A stretch of DNA of 64,000 bases. Origin: Bacillota bacterium (GTDB lineage: Bacteria; Bacillota; UBA994). Location of the stretch: positions 1 to 64,000 of the forward strand of contig JAGXTJ010000003.1 in assembly GCA_018333655.1 (NCBI GenBank). The letters run 5' to 3'. Position 1 is the first letter of the stretch; every line of letters starts with the position of its first letter. A program made the translations under genes and the position numbers. A model generated the notes under the pieces. That model saw nothing but the letters and a program-made list of their open reading frames with translations. It made no database searches and had not been told where the DNA came from. Shown one piece after another: positions 1 through 28,811 of the stretch.

Positions 1-113
1 TCTCGCCTACGCCCCTCGCTCATATATCAAACAGCCCACCTGTCAAGGGCCGCCGCCTGCTATTGCGGCAAACTGGCTCAGGCGACGCGTTTTCTGTGCC
101 TTAACGTGTTTCC

Positions 114-392
114 TTGCCGCAGAAAATGTACACACGAAATACCGCAAAAAACAGAGCTAAAACGAGTTCTAAGGTGTCTAGTTTTTGGGGTTCACCGCAC
201 TTTGATTCCTCGCTGTTCAGTAACATTGACTTCATCTTTGTCCATTCAGGCTATATCTCCCACGCTTTCTACAGCAGAGTGATTAGTTCGCTTCGCTCCT
301 ATCCGCACGTTTCGCTGCACTACCTGCACGACACCAATCCCTTTCGCTCTCTTAAAGACATAGCCGCAGCAATAGACGGCGAAACTTTTTAG
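114..392 (+). CDS. Possible DUF2325-like fragment, function unknown
   Basis: A 92-codon open frame beginning with TTG (an ATG lies four codons in). No convincing ribosome binding site precedes either start, and the frame is closed by a stop about 15 bases upstream. The C-terminal half (a hydrophobic strand IDFIFVHSGYISHAF followed by a predicted helix and a second strand) resembles the Rossmann-like C-terminus of DUF2325 proteins, which have a similar VLTDYISH segment. The N-terminal 35 residues are basic and unlike that family. It may be the surviving 3' end of a longer gene. I do not assign a function. Confidence 0.3.
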   Translation: MPQKMYTRNTAKNRAKTSSKVSSFWGSPHFDSSLFSNIDFIFVHSGYISHAFYSRVISSLRSYPHVSLHYLHDTNPFRSLKDIAAAIDGETF

Positions 393-996: not shown

Positions 997-1025
997 TTGA
1001 CACAGAGCGGCTTTCCCGATAGGAT
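997..1025 (+). promoter_or_regulatory. Promoter of the antitoxin RNA
   Basis: TTGACA at 997-1002, a 17-base spacer, then TAGGAT at 1020-1025: a near-consensus sigma-70-type promoter. Transcription would begin near 1032, about 20 bases before the first 37-bp repeat, as expected for a type III antitoxin RNA. Confidence 0.75.
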
Positions 1026-1050
1026 TAACGTAGATATCAAATTAATCCAC

Positions 1051-1153
1051 GGTGTTTCGCCACCGTTAAGGGCGAGTTGTGGATTCGGGTGTTTCGCCAC
1101 CGTTAAGGGCGAGTTGTGGATTCGGGTGTTTCGCCACCGCAAAGGGCGACTGG
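1051..1153 (+). repeat. 37-bp tandem repeats (2.8 copies) of the antitoxin RNA
   Basis: Copy 1 is 1051-1087, copy 2 is 1088-1124 (identical to copy 1), and copy 3 is 1125-1153 (partial, with substitutions near its middle and end). Each unit starts GGTGTTTCGCCACC. There are no spacers, which separates the array from CRISPR. Confidence 0.9.
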
Positions 1154-1157
1154 TAAT

Positions 1158-1190
1158 ACAGCAGGGCACGGGCTAACCGTGTCCTGCTGT
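1158..1190 (+). terminator. Leaky hairpin between antitoxin RNA and toxin
   Basis: A 14-bp stem (1158-1171 with 1177-1190, one G-U pair) closes a five-base loop. It is followed by CTTC rather than a long T-run, so it is likely an attenuating terminator. A closely similar hairpin with a strong T-run lies at 4876-4911. Confidence 0.75.
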
Positions 1191-1234
1191 CTTCAATAGA
1201 TAGGATTAATCAGTAGAACGCCCAAGGAGGATGT

Positions 1235-1807
1235 ATGGACGAGCTTAAATTTTACGACGTTGATCAACAGTACCTTCGCTATCTGCACCAATGGGACCCC
1301 AGAATACCGCACATTTCCTCAACAAGGAATGAGAAGTTCACCTGCGGCATTGTTCTGGAGGTAAATGGCCATCAATACTTTGCTCCCGTATCATCATTTA
1401 GGGAGCAACAACGGTCAAACATCGTCATTCTTAATAATCAGGGCCGCCCCGTTGGGAGTGTAAGGTTTAGTTTCATGTTCCCGATTCCAAGCGGCCAAGC
1501 AAAGATGAAGGATTTCGCAAAGGAAGACGCTAAATACCGAGAGCTTCTACGGGAAGAGCATGCCTTCTGTAATAAGCACAGAGAGCGTATCAGAAAAAAA
1601 GCGCAAGAAACATACGATGCAGTAGTCAAGCGCAAAGAGCCGCTGATGATCAGCAATTGCTGTGCCTTTTCGCTCCTTGAGGAGAAGGCGCTAGAGTATG
1701 TCTTGGCTATCGAAGAGGTAAGGCTAGCAGCCAAGGAGGTCGCTCCTATCGACCAAAAGGGCATGCGCACACACACCGCAAGGCCCAGCGATGGAAGGGA
1801 TAGGTAG
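1235..1807 (+). CDS. toxN: ToxN/AbiQ-family type III toxin endoribonuclease
   Basis: A 190-residue protein behind a strong AAGGAGG site. The N-terminal half carries the family features: a K-F-Y-x-V opening strand, a CGIVLEVNGHQYFAPVSS block (the Y-F-A-P-L-S-S motif that contains the active-site Ser of ToxN), a GSVRFSFMFPIP strand, then a long basic helical region. ToxN cuts single-stranded RNA, processes its own repeat RNA, and in known systems causes abortive phage infection. Usual family length is about 170 residues; the last 20 residues here (Pro/Thr/Arg-rich) look like an extension. The repeat RNA immediately upstream is strong independent support. It lies between a truncated gene and a recombinase, so it is probably horizontally acquired. 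Confidence 0.85.
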   Translation: MDELKFYDVDQQYLRYLHQWDPRIPHISSTRNEKFTCGIVLEVNGHQYFAPVSSFREQQRSNIVILNNQGRPVGSVRFSFMFPIPSGQAKMKDFAKEDAKYRELLREEHAFCNKHRERIRKKAQETYDAVVKRKEPLMISNCCAFSLLEEKALEYVLAIEEVRLAAKEVAPIDQKGMRTHTARPSDGRDR

Positions 1808-8968: not shown

Positions 8969-9700
8969 TTAATTGCTTGCAGAGGAGACTATGGGCATGT
9001 TGTCCCAGGTCTGCCCTAAAAGGATTCGCCCTGCTTTTTTCTTATGTGTTCCACCCCATTGTTTGAAGTAAAAGGGCACGACTTGTTGGTCGCATTGCTC
9101 CTTTAGGTTCAACACCCAGTCAGATTCCATAGGTCGAGCTCCTGGTCCACTTTCACCGCCTACAATGCTCCATTGAATGCCAGAGAGGTTCACTGCTCCT
9201 ATATCATTCAGTAGGGGTTCAAAGGATATGAATCTAACTGCAGAAGCAACGGTTCTAAGGGCGTCAACACGGTATTTGTGCTCAGAACTCTCGACAGTTA
9301 CTCCTTGCCAGATGTTCGGAGTCCAATTGAGCTGAGGTGCTAATTCCGCCAGGCGCAGAGCGCGCTTAGTCAAGATCTGAAAAGTGTGCATTGGAGCCTT
9401 GTTCATGACCTCGAAGACTTGTTCAATGAAGCGGAAGGGTATGTCTTCGTGAAATAGGTCAGACATGGAGTTCACAAAAACTAGTCTCGGTTTGCGCCAC
9501 TTTAGCGGCTCATCAAGGGCTGACTCGTGGGTCCTCACGCTGAAGCCATCCTCATACTTCGCGCTTCCCATGTGCATGAGTCTATTGGCCATAGTATAAG
9601 CGTAGCAGTTCTTGCATCCATCGGAGATACGGGTGCAGCCGGTGACAGGGTTCCAAGTATTTTCTGTCCACTCAATTTTAGACTTAGCAGACACTATCAC
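8969..9700 (-). CDS. Phage Gp37/Gp68-like (DUF5131) three-Cys-motif protein
   Basis: A 243-residue cytosolic protein. Its N-terminus (KIEWTENTWNPVTGC) followed by C-x6-C-x2-C (CTRISDGCKNC) is diagnostic of the Gp37/Gp68 (DUF5131) family. The rest is a TIM-barrel-like series (RLVFVNSMSDLFHEDIP, ILTKRALRLAEL, WQGVTVES, RFISFEPLL, WSIVGGESG). The three Cys could bind an iron-sulfur cluster as in radical SAM enzymes, but the spacing differs from CxxxCxxC. It starts with GTG 10 bases after the TcmP gene, behind GGAAGGGGG; a second GTG two codons in is equally good. The family is common in phages and defence-rich regions; its reaction is not known to me. Confidence 0.85.
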   Translation of the reverse strand: MIVSAKSKIEWTENTWNPVTGCTRISDGCKNCYAYTMANRLMHMGSAKYEDGFSVRTHESALDEPLKWRKPRLVFVNSMSDLFHEDIPFRFIEQVFEVMNKAPMHTFQILTKRALRLAELAPQLNWTPNIWQGVTVESSEHKYRVDALRTVASAVRFISFEPLLNDIGAVNLSGIQWSIVGGESGPGARPMESDWVLNLKEQCDQQVVPFYFKQWGGTHKKKAGRILLGQTWDNMPIVSSASN

Positions 9701-9710
9701 TTCCCCCTTC

Positions 9711-10538
9711 CTATGACTTGTACTTAAGGATATGGTCTGCGCCCTTTAAAGACAATTGTATCGCACGGTGACTGGGATTACTAATAGCAAAACAGAGTAA
9801 AAACATCGGAGCATTTTTGGATTGCCGTAACACAGCTGGACTTGGAGAAACCCCCGGGAAGATAGTCCTCAGACGCTTAATCACGTATGCCTTGATATCT
9901 TCTACCTCGACTCGCTCTACCCTTTCATCATCAAATAGGCTGAGTTGTGCTGGTGCATGGTAGCGTTCTTTCTGCCATTCATGTGTCCCGAGGAGTGCAT
10001 TGATCTTCTCTTGCCAGCTATTCGGGATGCGACCTTCTTTGGGCAGGCATCTAATAAGAGCTGATAGGGGAAAGAGATACCAAACATCAAAAGCCTCACT
10101 CTGGGCAATGGTTTTTAGTGACTCCCATCTAAGGTTCATAGCATAAGGGTCTAAAAATATGACTCCGCGCCAGTTGTTTGCACGCCAGTTGTATGTATAG
10201 ATACTCTTAAGCATTTCGTTACAGTCTCCTAGAAAGAAGTCTATGCGCTTTCCAGGGGCTTTCTCGCCGGATTTGTTCGAGAGCTCTGCTAAATATGACT
10301 CATCATGCTCGATAAATATGTATCGATCGAAGGGATAGTCAAGAGCCCTCAGGGCTGAGCCAGTAACGCTTTGCTCTGTCTTCAGGTCTACGTTGCCGCT
10401 TCCTGCAAATGCGTCAATGTAGCACAGATTGAAGTTTTGTTTTTTTAGAGCCGTCGTATAGAATCCTAAGTATCTTTGTAGCATCTCTAGCTTAATAAGG
10501 GTCCATGGGCCACCAAACCCCTGGGTCAAGCTGAGCAC
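9711..10538 (-). CDS. tcmP: Three-Cys-motif partner protein TcmP
   Basis: A 275-residue protein of the TcmP family, named for its co-occurrence with the three-Cys-motif protein encoded next to it. It shows the opening FGGPWTLIKLEMLQRYL, the Rossmann-type strand CYIDAFAGSGNV (resembling the SAM-binding motif of DNA methyltransferases), an acidic FIEHDESYL strand and FLDPYAMNLRWESL, close to a D-P-x-G/A methyltransferase motif IV. It is the first gene of a two-gene minus-strand operon. The family is thought to be methyltransferase-like; substrate and role are unknown. The low-GC, loosely packed neighbourhood suggests acquisition with the partner. Confidence 0.85.
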   Translation of the reverse strand: MLSLTQGFGGPWTLIKLEMLQRYLGFYTTALKKQNFNLCYIDAFAGSGNVDLKTEQSVTGSALRALDYPFDRYIFIEHDESYLAELSNKSGEKAPGKRIDFFLGDCNEMLKSIYTYNWRANNWRGVIFLDPYAMNLRWESLKTIAQSEAFDVWYLFPLSALIRCLPKEGRIPNSWQEKINALLGTHEWQKERYHAPAQLSLFDDERVERVEVEDIKAYVIKRLRTIFPGVSPSPAVLRQSKNAPMFLLCFAISNPSHRAIQLSLKGADHILKYKS

Positions 10539-23697: not shown

Positions 23698-24863
23698 CCT
23701 GATCGGTATGTTCTCCACAAGAAGAAAAAGCTGTTCTTGGCGCACACCAATCCCGCTGTAGATAACCTAAAACGGCGCGTAAAAGCATCGGAGTGCAAGT
23801 TTTCAACAATCACAAAGTTCCTTAAAACAGGCGGGGTAGGTCAGGATTGCGAAATCTTGGTGGTTGATGAGTGCAGTACAGTTAGCAACAGCAATATGAG
23901 GGCAATTCTTGAAAGCCCGTGCTTTTCCATGGATACAGTAGGACATAAGCTATTGGTGCTGGTTAGAGATACGTACCAGATTGATTCCATTGAGTTCGGA
24001 AACTGGTTTGATATCGCGAGAAGATTTGTCCCTGATGCTTCGGTCTGTGAATTGACGACGCCATGGCGTAGTCGCGACAAGGGCTTGCCAAAACTGTGGC
24101 AGAGGGTTCGCGGAGTGGACGGCAAGGAACCAAACGCCGTGCTTGAATCGTTAACGCGCCAAGGCTATACGACAAATCTAGATAATTCTATTCTTACCGC
24201 CACTAAGAATGACGAAATTATACTCTGTCTCAATTATGACGGGCTGTATGGAATAAACAATATAAGCCGTTTTCTGCAGGAGAGTAATCCGCGACTTGCT
24301 GTAACTTGGGGCATTCAGCAGTATAAAGTCAATGACCCGATCCTGTTTAATGACTCAGACCGTTTTTTCCCCATAATCTACAACAACATGAAGGGGAGAA
24401 TTGGGGCATAGCGATATTTGATAGGGGCTTGGTAACGGAGCGAATACAGTTTGACATAGAGCTGGATAGGATACTAATGGGGACGGACGCCTTTGGGCAG
24501 GGCTTTCAATTGCTGCCCAATGCGCCAAGTGGGTACTCTGTAACTAAAAGCAAGAGCGCTGACGAGGATAATCCAAGAGGTCGTTCCTCGAAAGATGATG
24601 TTGCTCCGTTCCAGGTCGCTTATGCAGTCTCTATCCATAAATCTCAGGGTTTAGAGTACGATTCGGTCAAAATCGTCACCACCGATGAGGTTGACGAACT
24701 GATAACACACAATAATTTCTGCACGGCAATTACCCGGACTAGAGGTAAGCTGAAAATCTACTGGACACCGGAAGTGGAAAAGAAAGTGCTTGAAAGCATA
24801 AGGCCGAAAAACATTGGCAGAGATGTTTTATTGCTTCGTAACGACCTTTGCGACCAAGGATGA
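23698..24863 (+). pseudogene. Superfamily 1 helicase (RecD/UvrD-like), truncated and frameshifted
   Basis: Two frames together encode the C-terminal part of a DNA/RNA helicase. The first, from about 23698, reads LFLAHTNPAVDNLKRRV, CEILVVDECSTVSN (motif II DEC) and LVLVRDTYQIDSIEFGNW, then ends at 24411. The second (about 24390-24863) contains VAYAVSIHKSQGLEYDSVKIV and NFCTAITRTRGKLKIYW, the C-terminal helicase motifs V and VI. Similarity between the two frames switches near 24395-24410 (KGRI, then IAIFDRG), so a small indel has broken the gene. The Walker A motif and the start are missing. It stands directly before the Gabija genes and may once have been part of that defence cluster. Confidence 0.8.
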
Positions 24864-25021
24864 TTACACGGGCCCAAAGCGTTACGACGCAAGCGTCAAG
24901 TAGTTCACACATACATGGGATATTTTGGACATAAGTGACCTACGCGAACGGGCGCAGAGCCTACTTTCCTGTTCCCGACGGTGTTCGAAGGAGATTTTAC
25001 AGCAATAGAAAGGATAATCGA

Positions 25022-27010
25022 ATGAAAACACAACCCTACATCTGTCGTGTGCATATCGAAAATTTCAGGAACTTTCATGCCGTGGATTTCCGGCTTAGTG
25101 AAAAGCAGGTGCTCATCGGAGAAAACGCTGTAGGGAAGAGCAACCTACTTTATGCATTGCAGCTCATCCTTGACCCGACGCTTTCGGAAAAGGATCGAAT
25201 GCTTGAGGAGTCTGACTTTTGGGAATGCTTGCCAGACCCAATGGGTACCGGCGAGCAAATCCTGATTGAGGTCTACTTCGCAAATTACGCAGATAACCAG
25301 AATGTGCTTGCTCAATTGACTGACGCGACGGTGATGCTCGACGGCAAGGAAACGCTAAAGCTCACATATAAATTCTTCAAAAAACACGGGGATAAGCCGG
25401 ACTATAGCTATGCGATTTTCAAGGGCGACGATGAAACGAGAGCATTTACCTACGAAGACCGGAAAATCCTGAACATCCGCGTGATAAAGGCTATCCGGGA
25501 CGTTGAGTTGGAAATGCGTAACTCCAGAACATCGCCACTGACGCAGATCATCAGGCAGAAATACACTGTCAGCAAGGATGTACTTGCCGAGATATCAAAA
25601 GCACTCGAAGAGAAAGGTGCGGATACCCTTCAGATTGGTCAAGTTGGTGATCTGGAACAGCGCATCCGTACCCTGATGAACGCGATGGTATCATTCAGCG
25701 CTGACGAGTTTGGCGTTTCTTTGAAAACCATGAACATTGACGCGACTAGGCTCCTCTATACATTGCGCCCATTGATCAACAACCGTGAAGCCGGGAACAC
25801 AAGTCTTGGCGTGAATAACATCCTCTACATTGCCCTAATCCTTCTCTTGATTGAGGACGACACAATTAAGACCTATTTACCCAGCGATCTCTACGCCGAG
25901 TTAGTAGAGAAGGATAAACACAACCTAATTCAACGTTGTTACAACAAGCTCGAAACGGTGGATGGGTATGCTCTCAACCTCGCCGCGCTCAAAGATACAG
26001 CCATGCGTGACGGTCTTTATTCGTTTCTGTCTCAAACAATTCCGAGTGCTCACGGCTCAACGATTCTAGCAGTTGAAGAGCCGGAAGCCCATTTGCATCC
26101 GATATACCAAAGGCTGCTATATAAGCATGTGATGAACAAGACCAACACGTCGGTCATAATAACAACCCATTCTACGCACATATCTTCGGTTGCGCCAATA
26201 ACATCGCTCGTTCACCTGATTGCTAAGCCAGACGGAACATGCGTTAATACCACAGCAGGGCTCCAGCTTCCCAGCGAAGAATACGCGGATTTAGCGAGAT
26301 ACATTGATGTCAAGCGCGGAGAGCTTTACACAGCGAAAGGTATCATATTTGTCGAGGGAATTGCCGAGGAGTACTTAGTGACGAGTTTTTCAGAATGCTT
26401 GGGATTCGAACTGGATCGGCTTGGGTTAGTTATTTGCGATATCAACTCAACGAACTTCAAACCGTACTGTCGTTTTGCTGATGTACTCGGGATTCCATAT
26501 GTCGTTATCACAGATGGCGACTATTACCATGATGTCGACGGTAAAAAGCACTTCGGAGATCTAGCTTCTGATGATGACAACGCCAATGGTTATGACGGGC
26601 TCGACCGCGCCTCGCGCATTTATGGGGACACCATCAAATTGCTATACGGCGAGGCATTCGAAGAACTTGATTTTGACCAGCAGCGCGAAGCCTTTGCGGG
26701 ACTGGATGTGTTCATTGGGGAATATACCTTCGAGGTGGAGATATTCAGGGCCGCCAGTGCAACCGACAAAGCAGTTATCTATTCTGTTTTCGACCAATTG
26801 ACAAGCGGTGGTGACCAGCAGAGACGGAACTTTTCAGCCAACCTGACATCCGGCGATTACTACAAGTGCCTACGCCAAATTGAATCCTCGCACAGCGGCA
26901 TTGGGAAAGGGCGGTTCGCACAGCGGCTTGCTGAAAAGGTCACCCCAACAATGATTCCTGGTTACATATCAAACGCGATAAATAGGATTGTGCAAAAGGT
27001 TAGGGGTTAG
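25022..27010 (+). CDS. gajA: Gabija-type OLD-family ATPase/TOPRIM nuclease GajA
   Basis: A 662-residue OLD-family protein. The N-terminal ABC-type ATPase has Walker A GENAVGKS (33-40), Walker B ILAVEEPEAHLHP (E352/E353) and the H-loop IITTHSTHISS. The C-terminal TOPRIM domain has the first acidic motif IIFVEGIAEEYL (E445) and the D-x-D-like pair in VITDGDYYHD (D498, D500). In Gabija, GajA is a nucleotide-regulated DNA-nicking nuclease that acts with the helicase GajB against phages. The ATG follows AAAGGA; an upstream in-frame extension lacks a site. Family length is about 580-660. The downstream UvrD-like gene starts four bases after its stop, which is the Gabija operon order. Confidence 0.9.
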   Translation: MKTQPYICRVHIENFRNFHAVDFRLSEKQVLIGENAVGKSNLLYALQLILDPTLSEKDRMLEESDFWECLPDPMGTGEQILIEVYFANYADNQNVLAQLTDATVMLDGKETLKLTYKFFKKHGDKPDYSYAIFKGDDETRAFTYEDRKILNIRVIKAIRDVELEMRNSRTSPLTQIIRQKYTVSKDVLAEISKALEEKGADTLQIGQVGDLEQRIRTLMNAMVSFSADEFGVSLKTMNIDATRLLYTLRPLINNREAGNTSLGVNNILYIALILLLIEDDTIKTYLPSDLYAELVEKDKHNLIQRCYNKLETVDGYALNLAALKDTAMRDGLYSFLSQTIPSAHGSTILAVEEPEAHLHPIYQRLLYKHVMNKTNTSVIITTHSTHISSVAPITSLVHLIAKPDGTCVNTTAGLQLPSEEYADLARYIDVKRGELYTAKGIIFVEGIAEEYLVTSFSECLGFELDRLGLVICDINSTNFKPYCRFADVLGIPYVVITDGDYYHDVDGKKHFGDLASDDDNANGYDGLDRASRIYGDTIKLLYGEAFEELDFDQQREAFAGLDVFIGEYTFEVEIFRAASATDKAVIYSVFDQLTSGGDQQRRNFSANLTSGDYYKCLRQIESSHSGIGKGRFAQRLAEKVTPTMIPGYISNAINRIVQKVRG

Positions 27011-27014
27011 GCAA

Positions 27015-28811
27015 TTGACAAAGTACTTTCAGAGGAAACTTCAAGAAATCCGCAATGACCCAGAGCAACTTGCGGCATATGACGCATATGGCAATGCGGT
27101 TGTCGTGGCAGGACCAGGAAGTGGAAAAACAACCGTTTTGACGCTCAAAGTTATGCGTCTCTTAAACGAAGCCATTTGTCCCCCAAGAGGGTTGGCTTGC
27201 TTGACTTACAGCACAGAAGCCGCCCGCGAGTTCAAGAATCGGTTTGCAAAACTCGGGCTAACCAAGCGTGAAAATGTGTTCCTCGGCACCGTCCACAGCT
27301 TTTGCCTTGCGGAAGTTATAACCCCATTCGCTCACTTATACCCCAAATATAGAATCCCCCAACCCATACGGATCATATCGGAGTCGCAAAAAGAAAAGCT
27401 TTTCGATTCACAAGGATATGACGGGCAGCCACGGATGATCGATGTCGACAAGGAACGCACACGAAACATACGCGGTATCAGCCGTGTCGCTCTTGAAAGT
27501 TACGAAGTTGCGCTCAAGGCGGCCATTTCTTTTGAAGATTTACTGGTAGAGCGCGGCTATATTGACTTCATCAGCATGATAAAATTCTCCGTGGAGCTTA
27601 TTCAGAATGAGCCATATGTACGAAAGGCTCTCGAAGCAAAGTTTCCTTGGGTGGTCATTGACGAGTATCAGGATTTGGGGAGGCCACTGCATGAAATCGT
27701 CCTTGCTCTGCTCAATCTGGCAAACATCAAGGTATTCGCCGTAGGAGATGCCGACCAGTCCATTTACGATTTCCAAGGCGCAGCTCCAGATTATCTGACC
27801 GAGTTAAGCCGAAGGACCGACGTCCAATGTATCCGTTTGAGAAACAACTATCGCAGTTCTCAGGTCATCGTTGACGCATCCGAGCATGTGCTAGAATGTA
27901 AAAGAGGATATATAGCTTCAGGGCAGCTGCGCAATTACCAAGCATCGATCGAGTTCTGCGAATGTGCTTATGGAATGGAAGAACAGTATTCTGCCGCTGT
28001 GAAGTTGATCAGAAGATTCCATGGAGAAGGCATCCCCTTCCATGAGATTGCTGTCTTGATGGGCAACAACAATCAGGTCAAAGAGCTGTATGCCGAATGC
28101 ACAGCAAAAGGCATTCCTGCCTATATTGCCCGGCAGAGCTTCAGGAACACCGATCCAATTCTCTGGCTTCAAAACTGCGTCTGCTGGCTCCAAGACAAGA
28201 GCACTGGGTCGTTTGATGAGATATGCTCTGCCTGGAAGGGCTTCCTGTCGCTCAAGAGGGACAACGCAATCGATGAGAATGAGTATCTGGGCATCAAGAG
28301 AAACCTAATTCGCGTATTGACTGCCAGCCGCATTCATAAAGATAATCTCTATGAATGGCTTCGCTTCATTTTTACAGAATTGGATATCTGTGCGTTGTTC
28401 TCCGGGTCAGACCGGTTTCCAGATGAAATCGAGAATTTTAAGAAGCTGGTTCAGGTCTCAAGGGAAACGGAGCCGACTTTAACAATCGACTTTATGGCTC
28501 GTCTCGGTGTCCCTGATAATCAGGTAGTCTTGTCCACGAGGCACAGCGCAAAAGGCCTAGAGTTTGATTGTGTAATCATGCTTGGCATGGAAAAAGATAG
28601 CTTTCCCAGCTACTATGACACCACTGTCAGACAAATTGAAGAAGCTCGCCGGCTCTGCTTTGTCGCTGTTAGCAGAGCAAGGAAGGCCTGTGTATTGGTT
28701 CGATCAAAACAACTACCTAATAGATATGGTCGGTGGTTTCCTAAGGAACCATCTCCGTTTTGGATTACCATTAAGGGGTTTCTAGATGAACGTTTGGGCA
28801 GTACCTGCTGA
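27015..28811 (+). CDS. gajB: Gabija-type UvrD/Rep-like helicase GajB
   Basis: A 598-residue superfamily 1A helicase. The motifs in order are Q-motif region NDPEQLAAYDAYGNAVVVAGPGSGKTT (motif I), ACLTYSTEAAREFKNR (Ia), WVVIDEYQDLG (II), VFAVGDADQSIYDFQGA (III), RLRNNYRSS (IV), LSTRHSAKGLEFDCVIM (V) and RRLCFVAVSRARKACVL (VI). The start is taken as TTG at 27015, four bases after gajA and behind GGGGTTAGG; a GTG at 26988 overlapping gajA is possible. GajB is thought to sense DNA ends and supply the signal that licenses GajA. All motifs look intact, so the pair should be functional. Confidence 0.9.
   Translation: MTKYFQRKLQEIRNDPEQLAAYDAYGNAVVVAGPGSGKTTVLTLKVMRLLNEAICPPRGLACLTYSTEAAREFKNRFAKLGLTKRENVFLGTVHSFCLAEVITPFAHLYPKYRIPQPIRIISESQKEKLFDSQGYDGQPRMIDVDKERTRNIRGISRVALESYEVALKAAISFEDLLVERGYIDFISMIKFSVELIQNEPYVRKALEAKFPWVVIDEYQDLGRPLHEIVLALLNLANIKVFAVGDADQSIYDFQGAAPDYLTELSRRTDVQCIRLRNNYRSSQVIVDASEHVLECKRGYIASGQLRNYQASIEFCECAYGMEEQYSAAVKLIRRFHGEGIPFHEIAVLMGNNNQVKELYAECTAKGIPAYIARQSFRNTDPILWLQNCVCWLQDKSTGSFDEICSAWKGFLSLKRDNAIDENEYLGIKRNLIRVLTASRIHKDNLYEWLRFIFTELDICALFSGSDRFPDEIENFKKLVQVSRETEPTLTIDFMARLGVPDNQVVLSTRHSAKGLEFDCVIMLGMEKDSFPSYYDTTVRQIEEARRLCFVAVSRARKACVLVRSKQLPNRYGRWFPKEPSPFWITIKGFLDERLGSTC

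Follow-up and report, generated by a model that had tools for sequence, protein, structure and literature searches.

Described systems close to the locus analysed here are the ToxIN systems of Pectobacterium atrosepticum and Escherichia coli (2XD0/2XDB/2XDD, 7D8O; PMC8860590), the AbiQ/antiQ system of Lactococcus lactis (4GLK) and ToxIN of Bacillus thuringiensis (4ATO). The P. atrosepticum and E. coli antitoxins have about 5 repeat units, antiQ about 2.8 repeats of 35 nt, and the B. thuringiensis antitoxin 2.9 repeats of 34 nt (PMC5086642 for the latter two). Characterised ToxN proteins cut RNA at AA^AU, GAA^AU or AAA^AA (PMC8860590), the last being the site of B. thuringiensis ToxN. In E. coli ToxI, U12 and U22 pair non-canonically within a U:U:G triplet.

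The window, by which we mean the whole 64,000-nt stretch analysed, opens contig C3 of a draft genome of 2.2 Mb. We put the probability that it contains a type III toxin–antitoxin module of the ToxIN family at about 94%, and the assignment made by an earlier sequence-only reading is borne out by sequence, fold, repeat architecture and pseudoknot covariation. The locus is an intact new member of a well-known kind, with an antitoxin that is new as a sequence. It shares toxin family, toxin fold and the order of repeats, hairpin and toxin with the P. atrosepticum and E. coli systems, but has three units. L. lactis AbiQ belongs to the same ToxN/AbiQ family; antiQ units are similar in length to those of the window but differ in sequence. 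The features are as follows.

997..1025, + strand: predicted sigma-70-like promoter, TTGACA-17-TAGGAT (consensus scan, 10/12 matches)
1051..1087, + strand: ToxI unit 1, pseudoknot core 1051-1076 plus linker TTGTGGATTCG (TRF, repeat finder, register, stem-2 covariation)
1088..1124, + strand: ToxI unit 2, same sequence as unit 1 (TRF, repeat finder, register, stem-2 covariation)
1125..1161, + strand: ToxI unit 3, 3' tail CTGGTAATAC (73% to unit 1; stems intact)
1158..1190, + strand: 14-bp hairpin between antitoxin and toxin (-28.1 kcal/mol, z -7.3)
1224..1230, + strand: ribosome-binding site AAGGAGG (sequence)
1235..1807, + strand: toxN, 190-aa ToxN/AbiQ-family endoribonuclease toxin (Pfam PF13958, PADLOC AbiQ, PDB sequence search, AlphaFold/Foldseek)

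The toxin and its expression signals

The toxN reading frame is intact, and its 190 codons span the whole Pfam ToxN model (ToxN_toxin, PF13958; 2.8e-35). PADLOC calls the product AbiQ (1.5e-34), and a sequence search of the PDB matched 4ATO, 2XD0, 7D8O and 4GLK. An AlphaFold model built with two sequences reached a pLDDT of 49.5 and was set aside for a seven-sequence model (pLDDT 82.8). For the latter, the best Foldseek match was 4ATO (5.1e-13), and only 4ATO, 7D8O, 2XD0 and 4GLK fell below E = 1e-3; the comparison of a predicted structure with ToxN, which the sequence-only reading had proposed, came out in favour of the ToxN/AbiQ-like gene that it had described behind AAGGAGG. B. thuringiensis ToxN is the best solved match by both sequence and fold, and the window protein is less similar to 4GLK than to 4ATO. 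Weak matches to MazF/Kid ranked after the ToxN/AbiQ structures, as expected from the nature of the ToxN fold. CptN (4RMO) was absent among the significant Foldseek matches, and with respect to the CptIN and TenpIN families, the Pfam, PADLOC and PDB family matches of the toxin were to ToxN/AbiQ only.

In E. coli ToxN, replacement of Thr52, Lys55, Trp57 or Gln117 by Ala, Val or Phe abolishes toxicity (PMC8860590). By the same numbering, the window protein keeps Lys33, Ser53, Phe88 and Tyr110 and carries Ser, Arg, Gln and Glu at positions 52, 55, 57 and 117; at the places of the known catalytic residues Lys33, Thr52, Ser53 and Lys55 it reads K, S, S, R. The P. atrosepticum and E. coli toxins have Q117, K55 and W57 where the window protein has E, R and Q, whereas B. 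thuringiensis ToxN has Q117, N88 and R33 in place of E, F and K and, like the window protein, lacks Lys55. Several of positions 52, 55, 57 and 117 also vary among other natural ToxN relatives.

The promoter and the 14-bp hairpin with a weak T-run, both noted earlier from the letters, are present, the former as a consensus match rather than as proof of function. The hairpin is probably a partial terminator; a terminator scan did not list it, and its weak T-run makes an attenuating role less certain. Separately, an exact 11-bp repeat, GATAGGATTAA, lies over the promoter -10 element (1018-1028) and again past the hairpin, ahead of the ribosome-binding site (1199-1209). The 2.2-Mb genome holds no further copy, and when the flanks were shuffled 5,000 times, any such 11-bp repeat arose in 6 cases. 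The pair could possibly be an operator or a duplication scar.

Three ToxI pseudoknots in the antitoxin array

Directly upstream of toxN, three 37-nt units stand head-to-tail (1051-1161). TRF reports a period-37 tandem array at 1051-1149 with 2.7 copies and a score of 184, in keeping with the spacer-free 37-bp array described earlier, for which 2.8 copies had been counted. The third copy does diverge in its middle, as that description held, by two loop bases (GTTAAG to GCAAAG), and it also has a different 3' linker; both of its stems are the same as in units 1 and 2, and the array is therefore better called three complete pseudoknot cores.

The window unit fits the common H-type pseudoknot register of ToxI, including that of the P. 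atrosepticum and E. coli antitoxins, and has G5, A19, A20 and G21 (E. coli ToxI numbering). To compare arrays, we collected ToxN genes of the same phylum as well as those of plasmids, phages and viral contigs, and read their upstream arrays. Because picking stem 2 by complementarity would be circular, we used a fixed-register rule that takes the three bases after AG+N as the 3' strand of stem 2 and is blind to stem-2 complementarity; it misses 6 of 36 cores. By this rule stem 2 covaries across ToxN-linked arrays, with 87 of 90 cells paired against a mean of 58 and a maximum of 71 in 20,000 shuffles. Against the repeats being a chance or unrelated tandem array beside a ToxN-like gene stands independent evidence from protein, fold, repeats and covariation, and among shuffled 37-mers of the same composition only 76 of 20,000 (0.4%) satisfy the strict ToxI pseudoknot pattern. 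We found no point in support of such an array and give it a negligible probability.

Two computational nulls bear on the same RNA. Nearest-neighbour folding of the whole array gave no unusual stability (z -0.03), with a program that cannot form pseudoknots. Rfam returned no ToxI match in the window, a result that is uninformative because the same search was equally empty at 16 related loci. In the window, the leader AATCCAC can pair with GTGGATT of the linker, a pairing absent in a second species of the genus (the congener below).

Most ToxN relatives share the architecture of tandem repeats upstream of the toxin gene. Unit lengths in the surveyed arrays are mostly 34-40 nt, so that 37 nt is typical and not, as had been supposed, longer than usual. 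Five arrays (L004, L058, L059, L065 and L066) have units of 51-58 nt, beyond the usual ToxI range. Neither a scan of viral contigs with the single window protein nor one with the exact RNA core gave a match; an alignment query recovered 8 relatives.

The closest counterpart is the toxIN locus of the congener (G001; L003/L032), whose ToxN is 58% identical to that of the window and whose 26-nt pseudoknot core is identical. It has a 37-nt period and 2.7 copies, and differs in its linker, TGTAGATGCA. The suggestion that the antitoxin RNA is new holds for its sequence but not for its structure, given the ToxI register and the core shared with the congener. In both loci, U12-U22 of E. coli ToxI is replaced by C-G, giving a continuous C-G pair, and the window unit has U for the A6 of the P. 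atrosepticum and E. coli antitoxins.

Genomic context

Among the sampled genomes, 2 of 3 from the genus carry toxN, as do 15 of 399 from the phylum, so that its distribution is sporadic. Unlike the window copy, the toxIN of the congener lies in a conjugation module, between genes for TrbL-, PrgI- and VirB4-like proteins; the module also has a gene for a T4SS coupling protein. A dispersed repeat occupies window positions 1-199 and recurs on contigs C21, C30 and C10 (74-199 identical on C30 and C10; 1-199 89% on C21). Exactly where this repeat ends begins a truncated gene (about 198-392), of which the 3' end alone is present, and a full 490-aa relative of it lies on the toxIN contig of the congener, about 8-9 kb from toxIN (55% identity over 62 aa). 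The dispersed repeat and truncated gene fit a damaged mobile element. A small serine recombinase (1979-2539) is single copy in the window genome; in the rest of the genus its matches are only weak and partial, and there is none near the toxIN locus of the congener. The earlier proposal of recent mobility receives partial support from the truncated upstream gene, the dispersed repeat and the conjugation module of the congener, which does not extend to "recent" or to a link between recombinase and toxIN.

Such surroundings raise the question of whether the locus is itself what is left of a mobile element in decay, its toxin or antitoxin no longer functional. The truncated neighbour adjoining a dispersed repeat, the divergence of unit 3 and the two substituted active-site residues would all fit decay. 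However, the toxN frame is intact, the full family model is covered and the fold is confident; units 1 and 2 are identical and unit 3 keeps all its stems; and the congener retains exactly the same core though the toxins differ by 42%. We consider decay very improbable.

Other defence-related genes occur in the window. Gabija lies at 24935-28811 (GajA, 9e-199; GajB, 1e-203), and just upstream of it a 224-aa fragment (23737-24411), probably a broken gene, matches the candidate defence protein PDC-S53 (900 aa) over positions 542-751 only. A candidate defence pair, PDC-M41A/M41B, lies on the minus strand at 8969-10538, its second gene being DUF5131.

Linkers without AA and the mode of action

By analogy with the general ToxIN steps (PMC5772629, PMC5086642, PMC8860590), the single promoter would give an RNA carrying three ToxI pseudoknots, and the hairpin ahead of toxN would pass only some transcripts into the toxin gene, which would keep the antitoxin in excess. 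ToxN would cut the precursor between pseudoknots, and the freed 37-nt units would bind ToxN head-to-tail, most likely in a 3:3 ring that blocks the active site and neutralises the toxin. Loss of the short-lived RNA, for instance after a phage has shut off host transcription, would leave ToxN free to cleave cellular and phage RNA. The outcome may be abortive infection, and with it phage defence, or stabilisation of the mobile element that carries toxIN.

At the cutting step the locus may depart from described systems. The internal linkers of the window, of the congener and of a third species from another family of the same phylum (L071) contain no AA. An A-rich cut site with AA between repeats, a trait of the studied members rather than one that defines the family, is thus not found in the window. 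By alignment, the window unit shares the 5' overhang AUUC with the E. coli unit, and the cut in the window linker would be GG^AUUC, compared with AA^AUUC in the P. atrosepticum and E. coli antitoxins. One surveyed array (L017) contains both TTTGATGC and TTTAATGC linkers and is apparently an intermediate in the loss of the AA site.

Since the linkers no longer hold an AA cleavage site, the ToxN of this sub-lineage might leave the array uncut, the three-pseudoknot antitoxin acting whole or being cut by a host RNase. All characterised toxins cut between As (PMC8860590), which the internal linkers of these three loci do not allow, and in Pectobacterium the ToxI precursor, too, is able to neutralise the toxin (PMC5086642). 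Nonetheless, the AUUC overhang is retained and the linker is strictly repeated, and because within the L017 array AUGC is preceded by either G or A, G before the cut looks tolerated. We regard an uncut array as unlikely.

Cleavage at altered sites offers another account of these linkers. In the toxin tree, the window, congener and L071 proteins group together (support 81; window plus congener 99), nested in an 18-member clade with Glu at position 117 (support 99). Among 36 arrays with readable linkers, a run of at least four As occurs in all 18 that accompany Q117 and in none of the 18 that accompany E117. Residue 117, which holds RNA, may help to set specificity. However, this split comprises no more than 1-4 independent contrasts in the tree, too few to separate the association from descent, and the P. 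atrosepticum and E. coli toxins of the literature (Q117, A-run of three) are exceptions to the cut-off of four; we therefore treat the association as a lead and not a result. With even odds, we propose that window, congener and L071 represent a ToxN sub-clade that cuts AA-less linkers (GG^AUUC, AG^AUGC and perhaps U^AUGC), specificities that would lie outside the A-rich rule of characterised type III toxins, and that in the window and congener are accompanied by C-G in place of the U-U of the U:U:G triplet.

In summary, what is less ordinary at this otherwise ordinary locus is the C-G pair at U12-U22 and the AA-less linkers. The locus documents a lineage whose inter-pseudoknot RNA has lost the A-rich cut site, and comparison with close relatives that keep UA^AU provides a natural series for the joint change of ToxN specificity and its antitoxin.
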